This document shows positions 9,187 to 18,633 of a stretch of 64,000 bases of DNA, piece by piece. Each line of letters starts with the position of its first letter. Position 1 is the first letter of the stretch. Source of the stretch: an uncultured Bryobacterales bacterium. Lineage in GTDB: Bacteria > Acidobacteriota > Terriglobia > Bryobacterales > UBA6623. The stretch covers positions 1,626,435 through 1,690,434 of the forward strand of contig OY282420.1 of the NCBI GenBank assembly GCA_958295955.1, written 5' to 3'. Position numbers and translations under genes: made by a program. Below the pieces are notes generated by a model that saw only the letters and a program-made list of their open reading frames with translations, did not search any database and was not told the origin of the DNA.

Positions 9187-12100
9187 TCATTCGACGGCTA
9201 TCGTGACGCCGGATTGGCTGCTGCCGCCGCCTATGGCGACGATCACCTCCGCCGCGGCGGACGGCGCGATCCCTGCGGGAACTTCCACTACCACCATGTC
9301 CACCGCCGCCAGCGTCGGCGCCAAGCCCGAAAACAGCACGCCGTCCGCAGCGACCGCCACGCCGCCGATGCTTACCCGCGGGCGCTCCGTCGTATGCCGC
9401 AGCACTACGTTCGACCCGTCCGCCAGGCAGATGCCCGCCGGCGCGCACGAGTTCTCCCCGTCGGCCACCGGCGGCTCCACCGGCCCCAGCCCCGTCGCGT
9501 AAATCTCCAGCACATCCCCGGCTTGCGCCGGACGGCTGCCCTCGCCCGCGCCGCGCGGAGCGGCCAACGCCGTCGTACCGGCGAACAACACGATCGCCTG
9601 GCCGCTGCCCGCGCCCGACGCCGTGAACACTCCCGGCCCATGCGACCCCACCCAGAACCGCCGCGGATAGCTGCTCTTGCCCCCCGCCTCCACGACCACC
9701 TCCGCCACGGTCGCGCCGCCCGCTTCCAAAGCCTCCCGACCCAACGCCCGGGGCAACTGCGCCTCGATGCGCTGCGGCTCTACCGCAAACAGCGGCGCCT
9801 CCAGACCGTCGAACAGCACGCGCACTCCCTCCAGGCTCGTCGGCAACGGAAAATCAGCGGCCTCAAGCCGTTCGCCCGCGAGGAAGTTCACCCCCTGCAC
9901 CACCACCAGCGATCCCGGCGTCAACGGCAGCGCCGGCGGCCCGAACAGCCCCGCCTCGCCGTAGGCGCTCATCCGCGCCGCGTTGAGCACGCCCCCGCTC
10001 TCGGTCACGTCCGGACCCGTCGGCGGCGCCACCTCCAGCACGATGCGCACCCGCGACACGCTCCCCCCGGAGCGGATGTACACATAGCCGCGGTGCGTTC
10101 CCGGACGCAGCCCCAGAGGATTCACCGTAACCCGCAGCGTCACCGTCTCGCCCGCAGCCAAGCGCCCCTTCCACGATGCGCTCCCGCTACTGCGCGAGAC
10201 CTCGATCCAGCGCGCGCTGGTCAGCACCTCGAACTCCGCCGCCTCGCCTTCGGCGCGCAGCGTGAGCGGCTGCGACATCGGCGCGGACGGGTCGGCGCCC
10301 GCCGCCGGCGCGAACGTCAACTCGGAAACGCCCACCGGCTTCACCGTCGGCTCCGGCTCGCGGGGCGGCGCGACCGGTCCGGGAACGGAATCCGCTACAC
10401 CGCACGGCCCGGGCGCGCTGCCCGCCGGCGCCGGGCCGATCTTGCGGATGCGGTTGTTGGCCCCATCGGCGATGTACACATTGCCCGAGGCGTCCACCGC
10501 CACGCCATAGGGGCTGCTGAGCTGCGCCGTCGTTGCCCTGCATCCGTCCCCGTTGTAGCCGGGAGTCCCGGTTCCCGCCACCGTAGAGATCTCGCCCGTT
10601 GTCGCGTCCACCTTGCGGATGCGCTCGTTGTTCCTATCGGCGATGTAAATGTTGCCCGAGCCGTCCACCGCCACGCCAACGGGGCCGTTGAGCCACGCCG
10701 CCGTCGCCGCGCCGCCGTCCCCGTAGTAGCCGCTTATCTTGGCCTCGGTTCCCGCCACCCTGGAGATCGTCCACGGCGTCGCCGAGGTGTCCACCTTGCG
10801 GATGCGGTGGTTGTCGATACCGGCGATGTAGATGTTGCCCGAGCCGTCCACCGCCACGCCATAGGGTAGGTCGAGCGTCGCCGACGTCGCCGCGCCGCCG
10901 TCCCCGCTCAAGCCCTTGGTCCCGGTTCCCGCCACCGTGGAGATGTCGAAGCCCGTGGTAGTAGCAGTCAACTTGCGGATGCGGTGGTTGCTGGTATCGG
11001 CGATGTAGATGTTGCCCGAGCCGTCCACCGCCACGCCTCGGGGGCCGTTGAGCTTCGCCGCCGTCGCCGTCGCCGGGCCGTTGTCCCCGCCGAAGCCCTG
11101 AGTGGTTCCCGCCACCGTGGAGATGAAGCCCGTGGAAGCAGTCACCTTGCGGATGCGGTTGTTCCTCCCATCGGCGATGTAGAGATTGTTGTCGCTATCC
11201 ACCGCCAGGCCATAGGGGGTTCTGAGTTGGGCCGACGTCGCCGGGCCGGTGTCGCCGCTGAAGCCGTGCGCGCCGCTGCCCGCCACCGTGGTGATGACGC
11301 CCGTTGTCGCATCCACCTTGCGGACGCGATTGTTGCCGGCGTCGGAGAGGTACAGATTGCCTGAACTATCCACTGCCACGCCATAGGGGATGTTGAGTTG
11401 AGCCGCCGTCGCCGCGCCGCCGTCCCCGCTTGGGTCGGATTTCAATCTTCCCGCGAAGGTGGAGATGTTGCCCGAGGTGTCCACCTTGCGGACGCGGCCG
11501 TTCAAAGTATCGGTGATGTAGAGGTTGCCGCTGCTGTCCACCGCCACGCTGCCCTGGGGGTAGTACATCTTCACCGCCGCCGCCGTCGCCGAGCCGCCGT
11601 CGCCGCCGTCGCCGGGAGTCACTCCGCTGCCCATCACCGTGCTGCCCGCCACCGTGGAGATGTTGCCCGCAGTGTCCACCTTGCGGATGCGATTGTTGAT
11701 AGTATCGGTGATGTAGATGTTGTTCGAGCCGTCCACGGCCACGCCAAAAGGGAATCTGAGCGTCGCCGCCGTCGCCGCGCCGCCGTCCCCGGTGTAGCCG
11801 GCAACCCCGGTTCCCGCCACCGTGGAGATCTTCCCTGCGTCCATCCCCGCAGCAGTCACCTTGAGGATGCGGTTTTGTTGGACGGCGATGTAGATGTTGC
11901 GGTCGCTGTCCACCGCCACGCCACTGAGCGATCCTCCGAGCACCGTCGCCGTCGCCTGGCCGCCGTCCCCGCCGTACGAGCCCGGCCCGGTTCCCGCCAC
12001 CGTGGTGATGTTGCCCGTGGAAACAGTCACCTTGCGGATGCGGAAGTTGAGTCGATCGGCGATGTAGATGTTGCGGGCGCTGTCCAGCGCCACGTCCCAG

Positions 12101-12705
12101 GGGCTGTTGAGTTGCGCCGCCGTCGCCGGGCCGTCGTCCCCGTCGCGGCCTTTAGTCCCGTTGCCCGCCACCGTGGTGATGACGCCCGTGGAAGCAGTCA
12201 CCTTGCGGACGAGCTGGTTGTTGACATCGGCGATGTAGATGTTGCCGTCGCCGTCCACCGCCACGCCCCGGGGGGCGTTGAGCTGCGCCGACGTCGCCGG
12301 GCCGCCGTCCCCGCCGTCGCCGGGAGTCCCGTCGCCCGCCACCGTGGAGATGTTGCCGTCGCCGTCCACCTTGCGGATGCGGTGGTTGTTGGTATCGGCG
12401 ATGTAGATGTTGTCATCGCTGTCCACCGCCACGCCTATGGGGGAACTCAGTTGCGCCGCGGTCGCCGGGCCGCCGTCGGCTACGTCCGCGTTTCCCGCGA
12501 CCGTTTCGATAATCCAGTCGGTTTGCGCCCAAGCGGGGGCGGCCGCCGCCAGAACGGCGGCGAGCGTTAGTAAAGAACAGCGAGCGGCGAGCGCGTGAAG
12601 AACACGAGCGCCGCGCCTGCGCTTGTCCTTATCTGACGACTGACGACTGACGACTGACCTGTTTTCATCGTACAACCTTTTGCTCCCATGCTGCAAAAAA
12701 CCCAT
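9187..12705 (-). CDS. secreted NHL-repeat protein with Solibacter-type C-terminal domain
   Basis: A protein of about 1172 residues from the ATG at 12705; the frame is open to a TTG at 12732. After a long basic N-region comes a hydrophobic stretch ending APAWAQ, a plausible signal peptide. Twelve NHL repeats follow, about 55-62 residues apart, each like GVAVDxxGNIYIADxxNxRIRKV followed by ISTVAGTG and GDGGPAT; these should form two stacked beta-propellers. Next comes a BACON-like beta domain (SELTFAPAAGADPSAP to VRIVLEVAPP). The last 260 residues resemble the TIGR03437 domain common in Solibacter and relatives (GVLNAARMSAY...GSLVVVQGVNFLAGE...LEIYATGLGPV). Probably an extracellular or surface binding protein; ligand unknown. 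Confidence 0.9.
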   Translation of the reverse strand: MGFLQHGSKRLYDENRSVVSRQSSDKDKRRRGARVLHALAARCSLLTLAAVLAAAAPAWAQTDWIIETVAGNADVADGGPATAAQLSSPIGVAVDSDDNIYIADTNNHRIRKVDGDGNISTVAGDGTPGDGGDGGPATSAQLNAPRGVAVDGDGNIYIADVNNQLVRKVTASTGVITTVAGNGTKGRDGDDGPATAAQLNSPWDVALDSARNIYIADRLNFRIRKVTVSTGNITTVAGTGPGSYGGDGGQATATVLGGSLSGVAVDSDRNIYIAVQQNRILKVTAAGMDAGKISTVAGTGVAGYTGDGGAATAATLRFPFGVAVDGSNNIYITDTINNRIRKVDTAGNISTVAGSTVMGSGVTPGDGGDGGSATAAAVKMYYPQGSVAVDSSGNLYITDTLNGRVRKVDTSGNISTFAGRLKSDPSGDGGAATAAQLNIPYGVAVDSSGNLYLSDAGNNRVRKVDATTGVITTVAGSGAHGFSGDTGPATSAQLRTPYGLAVDSDNNLYIADGRNNRIRKVTASTGFISTVAGTTQGFGGDNGPATATAAKLNGPRGVAVDGSGNIYIADTSNHRIRKLTATTTGFDISTVAGTGTKGLSGDGGAATSATLDLPYGVAVDGSGNIYIAGIDNHRIRKVDTSATPWTISRVAGTEAKISGYYGDGGAATAAWLNGPVGVAVDGSGNIYIADRNNERIRKVDATTGEISTVAGTGTPGYNGDGCRATTAQLSSPYGVAVDASGNVYIADGANNRIRKIGPAPAGSAPGPCGVADSVPGPVAPPREPEPTVKPVGVSELTFAPAAGADPSAPMSQPLTLRAEGEAAEFEVLTSARWIEVSRSSGSASWKGRLAAGETVTLRVTVNPLGLRPGTHRGYVYIRSGGSVSRVRIVLEVAPPTGPDVTESGGVLNAARMSAYGEAGLFGPPALPLTPGSLVVVQGVNFLAGERLEAADFPLPTSLEGVRVLFDGLEAPLFAVEPQRIEAQLPRALGREALEAGGATVAEVVVEAGGKSSYPRRFWVGSHGPGVFTASGAGSGQAIVLFAGTTALAAPRGAGEGSRPAQAGDVLEIYATGLGPVEPPVADGENSCAPAGICLADGSNVVLRHTTERPRVSIGGVAVAADGVLFSGLAPTLAAVDMVVVEVPAGIAPSAAAEVIVAIGGGSSQSGVTIAVE
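12634..12658. repeat. tandem heptamer TGACGAC, 3.5 copies
   Basis: TGACGAC is repeated at 12634-12640, 12641-12647 and 12648-12654 and is followed by TGAC. It lies within the 5' end of the NHL protein gene, between the possible ATG at 12705 and the signal-peptide region. Since 7 is not a multiple of 3, gain or loss of a unit would shift the frame. Confidence 0.8.
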
Positions 12706-12814
12706 CTTACCGCTTCGCTCCGTCAATAACAAGTTTACGGAAGACGAGCAGGCGCGCCGAAAAAACGAAGCCGCGGCGGAAAACTCTCAATCCGGGACGC
12801 CGCCGCCCGGCCGG

Positions 12815-14744: not shown

Positions 14745-17700
14745 TTACCGCGAGCGGCGCCAGCCGGCCCAGAACACACCTGCAAGCGCCAGTAAAACGA
14801 GGGCGCCGACGCCTGTCTCGGGCAGTCCCGGGGCGGGCGCCGGCGGCGGGTCGGCCGCGACCAGGCGGCGGCCGGCGACGCTTTCTGCCGCGGGACGCTC
14901 GAACTCGCGCCGCAGCGCGGCAATCGACTCGACGCGGCCGGCCTGCGCCAGGCGCCGCTCCACGAAGTCGGCGAAGCGGCGGTTGCCGACCGTGCGGATA
15001 TCGCCGGCCGCGCCGTGCCGCTCGACCGAATCGGCGTAGGCGGCCGCCAGCCGCTCGACAACGCCGGCCGCGGGCTGCCAGTAACCCTTGCGCGCCGCTT
15101 CGAGCAGCACCGCGGCGATGTTCTGATAGGCAAACGGGTTTTCGCGGTCGAACCACTGCGGCAGGCCGAGCCCCAGCGCGTCCTCGTGATAAATCTCGAA
15201 GACCGTGTCCCACATGTACTCGTCCACGGCTTCGGGCTTGGTGACCTGCCAGCCGAACAGATTGGTCGCCGTCTGCGAAATCTCCACCGCGCCCGAAAAC
15301 CCTTCTTCGCGGAGCGCGCGAATCCATTTCGGGTTCCAGAACTTGCCGCGCAGATCGCGGGTCAACGCTTCGCGCAGCGTCTCCAGGCGCGGAAGGTCGG
15401 CATCGCGAACGTCGGCCAGATAGGTTTCGGGAGATACGCCGGCGACGTCGCGCACGGCCATCGTCATGCCGCCCAGGTATTCGAAATAGTGGTCGAGCGT
15501 CAGCGCGCCGACGACGTTGGTGGAGCGGCTCAGCGTCACGGCGTCGGCGCGGCGGAGTTGCTCCGCGTACGCGCCGGGGGCCGCGCCGCCCCACTCGAAG
15601 CCGCGGGTGTACACGGCGCCCGCGCGGGCCAGGTAGGCCGCGGTCAACCCGCCGGTATCGGCGTACTCTCCGCTGCGCTCGATGCCCGCGACCAAGCCGG
15701 TCCCGTAGCCTCCGGCGGAATTGCCGAAAATCCGCGCCGCGGCCAGCACCCGCGCATCGTCGGCGGCCATTCCCGCTTGTTTCAGCGCCGTTTCGGACTC
15801 GTCCGTATGCTCGGCGACGTAGTTTTCGCCGTCTCGGGCGGCGGCCGCCAGGCGCACCGCCTTGTCCAGCAGTTCCAAACGGTCGGGGAACGTGTCGCGG
15901 AAAAGCGAAGCCGCCTGAATCACAACGTCGATGCGGGGCCGCCCGAGCTGCGCCGCGGGAATCAACTCGACGTCCTCGACTACGCTGCGGTGATCCCAGA
16001 CGGGCCGCACGCCCAACAGATAGAAGATGTGCGCCAGGTCCGTCCCGTATTGGCGGATCAACTCGGTATTCCAAAGCGTGAAACCGATCTTGCGCGGCCA
16101 GCGGCCCAGCCGCTCTTGCTCGGCTGCGAGTTGCGCCCGGGCGAGCGCGACGCCGATTTCCCAAGCGGCGCGGGTCGGCGTCTCCGCGGGATTGATGCCG
16201 TAGAGGTTGCGCCCCGTCGGCAGGGCGCGCGGGTTGCGCAGCGGGTCGCCGCCGCCGCCGGGTGAGACGTAGCCGCCGGCGAGAGCTTCGAGCGTGCGCG
16301 CGATCTCTTCTTCCGTGCGCCGGAAGTTCGCCCGAATTTCTGCGGCCCGCTCTTGGGCCGCCGCCCCGCGCTCGGCTTTTCCGCCGAGCATCGCGGCGAT
16401 CATCGGCGCCAACTCGGCCGGCGTGTTCGGCTCGCCGTGGACGTGCAGCCCGACCGGAATCTTGTCTTCGTCGATGAGGTGAACGTGCAGCCGCAATTCA
16501 GCGATCCGCTCGTCGGAGGGCGGCGCCTGCGACCAGTCGGCGCCGAGGTCTTTGTCCAAGCCTCGGGCATGCGCCGCCGCGGCGATCCGCCCGCGCAGCG
16601 TTTCTTTCAGCGCGCCCTCGTCCTGGGACAGAAAGCGTCCGGTTGCGCGGTAGAGTTCGGCCAGTTCCGCGTCTTCGCCTCGAATTTCCGCGGCGGCAAG
16701 CGGCGGAATCTGGTGGCTGACGGTCACCGCCGACCCGCGCCGCTTGGCGATCAAAGCCTCGCCGACGTTGTCCATCACATAGACGTAGAGATTGGGCAGC
16801 GGCCCCAGAACGCGGTCCGACCAATCGTCCGCCAGTTGACCGAGGGGTCTGCCGGGCAGGAATTCGTGCGTTCCGTGGGTGCCGTAGTTGAGCAGCGCGT
16901 CGGCTTGCCAAACCTCGCGCAGCCACCAGTAAACGGCCAGGTATTGATGCGGCGGAGGGACGCGGTCGTTGTGTTGCAGCTTGGCGTCCATGCGGGCGCC
17001 GCGGACCGGCTGCGGCAGCACGAGCACATTGCCGTAGTCGAGCTTGGGCACGACGAAGAACGTCTCGCCGCCGCGCTCGACCGTCATCAAATCGCCGGGC
17101 GGCGGCCCGAACGACGCTTCGACTTCCAGGCGCATCGCTTGCGGCAAGGTCTCGAACCAGGCGCGGTAGCCGCGGACCGGCAGCAGCAGCACGCCCTCGC
17201 GGGAAGCCAGCCGCTGCAGGTCGCGCTCGCGGCCGAAGCTCACGTTGCGCCCTTTCTCCAACATTTCGGCGAGCAGCGCGCGCTCGTCGGCGGGGGCGTT
17301 GTCCAGCCGATAGCCGGCGCCGCGCATGGCGGCGAGAAAGCGCGCCAGACTGCGCGGCGCGTTCAAGCCGGCGGCGGTGATGCGCCCCTTGCCGATTCCG
17401 GAGACATAGAAAATCGCAATCTTTTTCTCGCGGTTCGGGGCTTTTTTGAGGCGCACCCAGCGCCGCGCCCGCTCGACCATGCGGCCGATGCGCTCTTGCC
17501 GGAACGCCTCGAAACGGCGGCCGTACCAAGCGGCCTCGAGCCCCTCGATCAGCGTCGGCTCGATGGCGCCGTCCAACTCGGGGACCATCGCGCCCATAAT
17601 CAGGCCCGCGCCGCGGATGCCCGCGCGCGTCTGCCGGTACGCCTCAAAAGTCTCGCCCGTAAAGAGCAGCGAGAGCCCGCGCAGCAGCGGAACGTCGAGC

Positions 17701-18536
17701 CGCTCGTCGAGCGCCTGCACGCCCTGATCGCCCAACCACCAGCGCCCGTGCTTGCGGGAAACCACGATGTCCGGCTCATAGTCAATGGCGAAAGGAGCGG
17801 TCTGGGCCGTGCCGAAAACGGCCGCCGCGTTGAAGCCGCCTTCTTCAAACGCGCGGATCACGGCGTCGGTCGCCTGGTTCATGCCCAACCGCCAGCCGTC
17901 GGCAAAGTCGATGAAAACCTTGGGCGCGCCGGGCTTGGCCCGCTGCGAAGCGGCATACCAACGTTCGTACTCCGCTACGGAAGGGAACAGCGCGGCGGAC
18001 TCCGGGTGATAGAAGCCGTCGTCAGGGGTCGGCTGCGGCGGCAGTTGCGGGCAGTCGCGGTCAAGCTGCCGCGCCGCCGTCGTCCACAAGAGACGAGTCA
18101 TGTTCTCCACGCCGCCGAACCGCCAGTAGTCGTCGATCCACTTTTCCTCGCCGTTGAAATCGGCGTTGCCCACGGCCAGGCGGGCGGTGTCGTGAGCGGG
18201 CAGCACCACCACCCGCGAGCCGCCTTCCGCCGCCCGCGCCAAGGCGCGGCGGAGCGGCCGGTTCAACGGGTCGGAGCGCCGGCCGCTAACGTAAATCGCC
18301 GCGTAGCGCGAGAAATCCGGCTCGCCGAGCGCGGGATCGTCGATTTCCTCCGGCAGCCGGTAGTCGTAGCGCACCCCGCTGCGGCTCGCCGCCTCGGCGA
18401 TCAGCAGCCGATACATGCTCGGAAACCCGAGAAACGCGATGCGCGGCCGCGTCAGCCAATACCCGCCCGCCGCCGCGGCCAGCGCCAGCCCGACGGCCAA
18501 CGCCGCGCGGCGCCCGGAAAAAACCTGTGTCCACAT
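14745..18536 (-). CDS. membrane-anchored CobN-like chelatase with LPETG tail
   Basis: A 1263-residue protein of the CobN/ChlH/BchH family, the large porphyrin- or corrin-binding subunit of class I metal chelatases. The core motif NYGTHGTHEFLPGRPLG is near residues 550-566. Other conserved stretches are LHVHGEPNTPAELAPM, NLYGINPAETPT, RIFGNSAGGYGTG and FGWQVTKPEAVDEYMW. Unlike cytoplasmic CobN it begins with a membrane segment (residues 11-28 after a basic FSGRR) and ends with LPETG (1238-1242), a hydrophobic helix (1243-1259) and RRSR. This places the body outside the cytoplasm and resembles a sortase-type sorting signal. The start ATG at 18536 is chosen because it opens the membrane segment. 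No ChlI/ChlD partner lies nearby. An HmuS-like role in metal removal from tetrapyrroles is possible. Confidence 0.88.
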   Translation of the reverse strand: MWTQVFSGRRAALAVGLALAAAAGGYWLTRPRIAFLGFPSMYRLLIAEAASRSGVRYDYRLPEEIDDPALGEPDFSRYAAIYVSGRRSDPLNRPLRRALARAAEGGSRVVVLPAHDTARLAVGNADFNGEEKWIDDYWRFGGVENMTRLLWTTAARQLDRDCPQLPPQPTPDDGFYHPESAALFPSVAEYERWYAASQRAKPGAPKVFIDFADGWRLGMNQATDAVIRAFEEGGFNAAAVFGTAQTAPFAIDYEPDIVVSRKHGRWWLGDQGVQALDERLDVPLLRGLSLLFTGETFEAYRQTRAGIRGAGLIMGAMVPELDGAIEPTLIEGLEAAWYGRRFEAFRQERIGRMVERARRWVRLKKAPNREKKIAIFYVSGIGKGRITAAGLNAPRSLARFLAAMRGAGYRLDNAPADERALLAEMLEKGRNVSFGRERDLQRLASREGVLLLPVRGYRAWFETLPQAMRLEVEASFGPPPGDLMTVERGGETFFVVPKLDYGNVLVLPQPVRGARMDAKLQHNDRVPPPHQYLAVYWWLREVWQADALLNYGTHGTHEFLPGRPLGQLADDWSDRVLGPLPNLYVYVMDNVGEALIAKRRGSAVTVSHQIPPLAAAEIRGEDAELAELYRATGRFLSQDEGALKETLRGRIAAAAHARGLDKDLGADWSQAPPSDERIAELRLHVHLIDEDKIPVGLHVHGEPNTPAELAPMIAAMLGGKAERGAAAQERAAEIRANFRRTEEEIARTLEALAGGYVSPGGGGDPLRNPRALPTGRNLYGINPAETPTRAAWEIGVALARAQLAAEQERLGRWPRKIGFTLWNTELIRQYGTDLAHIFYLLGVRPVWDHRSVVEDVELIPAAQLGRPRIDVVIQAASLFRDTFPDRLELLDKAVRLAAAARDGENYVAEHTDESETALKQAGMAADDARVLAAARIFGNSAGGYGTGLVAGIERSGEYADTGGLTAAYLARAGAVYTRGFEWGGAAPGAYAEQLRRADAVTLSRSTNVVGALTLDHYFEYLGGMTMAVRDVAGVSPETYLADVRDADLPRLETLREALTRDLRGKFWNPKWIRALREEGFSGAVEISQTATNLFGWQVTKPEAVDEYMWDTVFEIYHEDALGLGLPQWFDRENPFAYQNIAAVLLEAARKGYWQPAAGVVERLAAAYADSVERHGAAGDIRTVGNRRFADFVERRLAQAGRVESIAALRREFERPAAESVAGRRLVAADPPPAPAPGLPETGVGALVLLALAGVFWAGWRRSR

Positions 18537-18633
18537 GGGAATTCGCGGCGGTCGAGGGAACGCGGCAATACGCCTGAAGGGGCCGGCCCGACAACGGCCC
18601 ACGCCCTATTTTAGCGGTTTCTCCGCGCCGCGG

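Follow-up and report, generated by a model that had tools for sequence, protein, structure and literature searches.

Direct proof that an enzyme can strip iron from heme first came in 2025, with HmuS (PMC12583661), and this activity is already known from two studies (PMC12583661; PMC13227078), both of which describe N- and C-terminal helices in the protein. HmuS is encoded in the hmuYRSTUV operon, the HmuU and HmuV products of which have been described as ExbB/ExbD-like (PMC10100974). The intact hmu operon has been reported to be confined to Bacteroidetes, which hold ~99% of the total and partial operons (PMC10100974), and a paper in EMBO J mentions uncharacterised HmuS homologues in many taxa. 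Searches of the open-access literature found no paper that ties Acidobacteriota or Bryobacter to HmuS or its operon. Here we describe an hmuS-like gene in a stretch of 64,000 nucleotides (the window) of contig OY282420.1 from an uncultured Bryobacterales bacterium, whose closest relatives with a name are metagenome bins of Bryobacterales (Acidobacteriota), many apparently from sponges by isolate name. What is new is an HmuS-branch protein in an environmental acidobacterium, the partner genes of which are scattered over the chromosome. The protein probably acts as a periplasmic dechelatase of heme, or of a related metalloporphyrin, from which Fe(II) would then be taken up by FeoB.

The gene belongs to the first of two paralogous groups in Bryobacterales (clades A and B; clade A has 30 members, including the window protein). 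The gene and the elements at the two ends of its product are as follows.

14745–18536, minus strand: hmuS-like gene of clade A, encoding a membrane-anchored class-I chelatase body of 1263 aa (open reading frame, profile match, tree, model).
18450–18506, minus strand: N-terminal membrane helix, aa ~11–29, with positive residues (...GRR) ahead of it (hydropathy, alignment to 9d26).
14760–14816, minus strand: C-terminal membrane helix, aa ~1241–1259, followed by RRSR (hydropathy).
14811–14825, minus strand: LPETG, aa 1238–1242, not conserved in any relative (sequence, tail alignment).

The reading frame runs from an ATG at 18536 down to 14745 without internal stops; an alternative in-frame GTG start at 18602 would give 1285 aa. 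The product matches Pfam CobN-Mg_chel with 947 bits and falls under the cut-off of all NCBIfam CobN/ChlH equivalog models; both databases name it CobN-like. An AlphaFold model of residues 28–1195, made from an alignment that contained HmuS sequences, shows a complete class-I chelatase fold (mean predicted local distance difference test score, 85). The initial annotation had described a CobN-like chelatase with an N-terminal membrane helix, with which the reading frame (on the minus strand), the Pfam match and the hydropathy agree. The head domain begins right behind this helix, as in HmuS, and the anchors at both ends are kept across clade A. With GRR preceding the N-terminal helix and RRSR following the C-terminal one, the positive-inside rule would place the chelatase body in the periplasm. 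A promoter and terminator scan gave one weak site upstream of hmuS and no terminator between hmuS and the adjoining miaB.

Among solved structures, HmuS of Bacteroides thetaiotaomicron (9d26) has the highest sequence score (606 bits, vs 409 for CobN and 395 for ChlH). Foldseek ranks HmuS over CobN (template modelling score 0.84 vs 0.76). In a careful tree of 25 proteins, the window protein, further Bryobacterales proteins and Bacteroidota HmuS form one group (support 98/98), from which CobN and BchH are set apart (100/100); a tree of 55 proteins agrees. Forcing the window protein and CobN together cost 69 log units and was rejected by the approximately unbiased (AU) test (p=4e-6). A strict clade of HmuS and Bryobacterales proteins is not the best tree, because one further protein (L074) falls within the group, and it was not rejected (p=0.34). 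Thus, the grouping with HmuS that the initial annotation had considered is upheld, and cytoplasmic CobN placement is rejected. The Pfam and NCBIfam names might still suggest a standard CobN of the cytoplasm whose N-terminus has been predicted poorly, and yet the NCBIfam scores are under the equivalog cut-offs, the anchors are conserved at both ends, and the genome lacks the partners of such an enzyme: neither ChlI/ChlD nor CbiC was found genome-wide. Given the AU test and the missing partners, we set this explanation aside as extremely improbable. The initial annotation had noted no ChlI/ChlD or cobalamin genes nearby, which is borne out for the surroundings of hmuS and, for ChlI/ChlD and CbiC, extends to the whole genome; the two PF01078 matches are of the ComM type, including the second (L091), which was considered as ChlI and proved ComM-like on inspection. 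Because no ChlI/ChlD was found, the genome appears to be without the ATPase partners that a cytoplasmic chelatase needs.

Residues were mapped on B. thetaiotaomicron HmuS numbering (PMC12583661) through the alignment to 9d26.

16872–16889, minus strand: NYGTHG, with His554 at the position of HmuS His-538 (alignment).
15468–15503, minus strand: LTLDHYFEYLGG, with His1016 and Glu1019 at the positions of HmuS His-1209 and Glu-1212 (alignment).
17748–17750, minus strand: His263, in an HGR motif, at the position of HmuS His-254, a head/neck heme ligand (alignment).
18279–18281, minus strand: Arg86, at the position of HmuS Met-79, a head/neck heme ligand (alignment).
16275–16421, minus strand: domain IV stretch of 48 aa, the site of the methionine-rich insertion in Bacteroidota HmuS (alignment).

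His-538 is essential for heme turnover in B. thetaiotaomicron HmuS (PMC12583661). The HmuS motif around it, HFG(T/A)HG, becomes NYGTHG in the window protein, which keeps the catalytic His and GTHG and changes the first two residues. At the motif LSLDHxxEFMGG of HmuS, the window protein keeps both the His and the Glu, as well as Asp-1208 (D1015). The equivalents of His-538, His-1209, Glu-1212 and His-254 are present in 30/30 clade A members. By contrast, His-1209 and Glu-1212 are replaced in every CobN reference, which has Asp at the 1209 position; BchH has His there, as does the window protein, a pattern that would fit a porphyrin as substrate better than a corrin. Taken together, these data indicate that the window protein is an HmuS-branch class-I chelatase; since some defining HmuS features are missing, it would be no strict HmuS by the published definition but a member of a sister lineage with a common catalytic centre.

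The partner genes are best seen in clade B, a second copy present in many Bryobacterales and ~57% identical to clade A. Its cluster encodes, in order, a small membrane protein, a MotA/ExbB-like protein (PF01618), a DUF2149 protein (PF09919), the HmuS-like protein, a TonB receptor that carries a carboxypeptidase-regulatory domain, and a pyrroloquinoline quinone (PQQ)-like protein, and thus resembles an hmuT-U-V-S-R operon; the Bacteroidota loci compared have the R-S-T-U-V order of the known hmu set. Clade A hmuS stands alone, often adjoining miaB. In the genome that holds the window, which has a single PF02514 protein, the complete operon of the HmuS definition is dispersed, with S at 1.64 Mb, T at 0.24 Mb and U-V at 3.70 Mb. 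The U-V pair consists of the only DUF2149 gene and an ExbB-like gene ahead of it (C1:3703880-3704861); in other clade A genomes, this pair lies at a conserved site by an aminotransferase gene and, in most, also rimO. The HmuT-like gene (C1:237325-237954; 35% to a clade A T) was missed by a clade B query and recovered by a clade A query, and lies in a dinB-bcp neighbourhood, as in other clade A genomes.

In 12/12 genomes of the same family to which both searches extended, the number of DUF2149 copies equals that of HmuS-type copies (G004 and G010 have two each; G000, G005, G006 and G011 have one; the rest have none, including G003, which encodes a CobN-like protein of non-HmuS type and no DUF2149). 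HmuT follows the same pattern except in G008, where a T-like gene occurs and the other genes do not. Of the evidence that the dispersed genes may function jointly, the match between DUF2149 and HmuS copy numbers is the strongest.

Clade A hmuS adjoins miaB (window:13315-14676) and hmuUV lies near rimO (L108-L111); both neighbours are MiaB-type methylthiotransferase genes and both arrangements are conserved, which is probably a coincidence. A very long CRISPR-like array (C1:3695000-3702400; L107:1-7400) with at least 91 copies of GACCCCGGCCCCATTGAAGC... at a spacing of ~72 nt ends ~1.5 kb ahead of the hmuU/V-like pair. A CbiO-like ATPase gene is conserved two genes upstream of hmuS in several clade A relatives; it was considered as a cobalt link and set aside, the intervening gene being on the other strand and no CbiM or CbiQ having been noticed.

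The best-supported model, in which the chemistry of the steps is taken from that proposed for B. thetaiotaomicron HmuS (PMC12583661), is as follows. The body would be periplasmic and held at the inner membrane by one helix per end; a metalloporphyrin, most likely heme, would enter through one of the many TonB-dependent receptors and reach the central cavity, where His554 and His1016 would act as axial ligands on either side of it, with Glu1019 tuning the site. Protonation of the pyrrole nitrogens would release Fe(II) and leave the porphyrin intact, and FeoB would import the iron. HmuU/V (ExbB-like and DUF2149) and HmuT, encoded elsewhere, may use the proton-motive force to power either import or the enzyme itself. 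As the reaction would run towards metal removal, it would require neither ATP nor ChlI/ChlD. The genome encodes two FeoB proteins, two ferrochelatases (C1:1364250-1365188 and C1:3239119-3240021) and 43 TonB-receptor matches, the receptors being among the genes that the initial annotation had linked to this question. Its suggestion of an exported, HmuS-related body used for metal removal gains support from the tree, the active-site residues, the two anchors and the ExbB-like, DUF2149 and HmuT-like partners.

Several observations weigh against this model. The methionine-rich insertion is absent (48 aa with 2 Met, where the four Bacteroidota HmuS proteins compared have 181-229 aa and 15-17 Met), Met-79 is replaced by Arg or Leu across the whole of clade A, and Ser-1014, Ser-1067, Gln-1198, Ser-1199 and Trp-1202 of HmuS correspond to N823, A876, S1005, T1006 and V1009. 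No TonB receptor is linked to the window copy of hmuS, and HmuY did not turn up next to the operons of the relatives, although no genome-wide search for it was made. The VIA-align Z score is higher for CobN (44.5) than for HmuS (37.5), although more residues are aligned to HmuS and at a lower root mean square deviation; together with the Foldseek ranking, the fold comparison thus does not decide between HmuS and CobN. The topology was read from hydropathy and charge only.

Because the methionine insertion, Met-79 and the cavity residues are lost, the protein could act on something other than heme b. An HmuS-branch protein might instead take the metal from another exogenous metallo-tetrapyrrole in the periplasm, such as the Mg or Zn of chlorophyll derivatives, or from a modified heme. 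The propionate-contact residues are replaced across all of clade A while the His/His/Glu centre is kept, the His at the 1209 position is common to BchH, and the metagenomes that yielded the named relatives are sponge-associated or from freshwater (habitats partly inferred from isolate names). On the other hand, the head-domain His-254 is kept in all clade A members, and FeoB together with two ferrochelatases fits a heme and iron economy; we regard a substrate of this other kind as unlikely, although it is the most serious of the alternatives. The chances are about even that periplasmic dechelatases of tetrapyrroles form a second lineage in the Acidobacteriota, outside Bacteroidota, acting on heme or another metalloporphyrin without a methionine insertion, Met-79 or an evident hemophore, and that its clade A copies work in trans with the T and U-V modules at separate conserved chromosomal sites.

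The C-terminus of the window protein reads ...APGLPETG-VGALVLLALAGVFWAG-WRRSR, so that the LPETG tail given in the initial annotation, with its hydrophobic helix and RRSR, is truly in the sequence. This full LPxTG-hydrophobic-basic layout, together with the frequency of sortases in a sister family of the same order, might suggest a surface protein in which a sortase cleaves LPETG and attaches the chelatase to the envelope. However, no sortase (PF04203) was found in the genome itself (4.58 Mb, 95.5% complete), and one occurs in only 1/17 same-family relatives (16/17 are without). LPxTG is present in 1/30 clade A members, the window protein itself (0/29 others), and in 1/55 aligned homologue tails, again its own; the relatives' C-termini are helices of like kind, e.g. 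...GFGDNAVLAVAGLLAGAFLLGWRRLA, without LPxTG. Sorting-signal profiles gave no match to the window protein at E<=1, and LPxTG is expected by chance in ~0.06-0.24% of random tails of this composition. The missing sortase and the unconserved motif speak against the sortase-type role, which we consider very improbable; with no sortase in the genome, the tail would be only a membrane anchor, the consequence already drawn in the initial annotation. The simplest reading is that the tail is an ordinary HmuS-type C-terminal anchor and that LPETG is a chance motif in a Pro/Ala/Gly-rich linker. Elsewhere in the window, 9187-12732 (minus strand) encodes what by eye is a secreted, NHL-repeat-like protein of 1181 aa, the C-terminal domain of which is of a type characteristic of Bryobacterales.

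A branch in Acidobacteriota that has the common catalytic pair and partner families, and is without the insertion and the heme ligand that serve to define HmuS, separates what dechelation needs from the peculiarities of gut Bacteroidota. Its presence further suggests that iron from heme is recycled in freshwater and sponge-associated communities, and implies that "CobN" annotations in genomes without ChlI/ChlD are probably wrong.

Compared with B. thetaiotaomicron HmuS (9d26/9p4s; PMC12583661), its nearest tree branch, the window protein has in common the six-domain class-I body with a helix at both ends, the four His and Glu equivalents and, via its sister paralogues, T/U/V/R-type partner genes; it differs in its ~30% identity, the missing methionine-rich insertion, the Arg for Met-79, the replaced propionate contacts and the dispersal of its genes, with no HmuY seen beside the operons. 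The clade B paralogue (e.g. L028; 57% identity) is alike in active site and anchors, and has a compact T-U-V-S-TonB receptor operon in place of a lone gene by miaB. CobN of aerobic cobalamin synthesis (7c6o), from whose clade the window protein is excluded, has the fold and the domain III cavity His in common with it, whereas it has Asp for His-1209, KHG for (T/A)HG in most cases, no membrane helices and a need for an ATPase complex. ChlH/BchH of magnesium chelatase have the same fold and the His at the 1209 position; however, they are cytoplasmic, depend on ChlI/ChlD (absent here) and form a separate branch.

Anchored CobN-like proteins also occur beyond these groups. In order-level relatives (L080-L083), CobN-like proteins of the DNDD type with membrane-type termini lie by TonB-receptor-cluster genes, without DUF2149 neighbours. 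The proteins of Candidatus Jettenia (L050) and an Azospirillum brasilense plasmid (L099) resemble the window protein in having anchors at both ends and ExbB and DUF2149 neighbours. The L050 gene lies near CbiMNQO-, CobD- and CobQ-like genes (by-eye annotation) and a porin-like gene, and possibly represents a cobalt-directed sister system. By analogy, the window protein might be a chelatase or metal carrier of the periplasm that inserts metal with energy from ExbB/DUF2149 and is tied to cobalt or cobalamin use, but the L050 subfamily has Asp (DNDD) where the window protein has LDHxxE and falls outside the HmuS group in the tree, and CbiC is absent from the window's own genome; this explanation is quite improbable, and removal of metal from heme or a related metalloporphyrin is preferred. 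The L099 protein, on a long and unsure branch, is annotated as cobN and keeps the His and Glu in a motif of HmuS type (TDHPFEYLGG); its gene is followed by ExbB and DUF2149 genes near an iron ATP-binding cassette transporter, which makes it a candidate proteobacterial HmuS-like protein.

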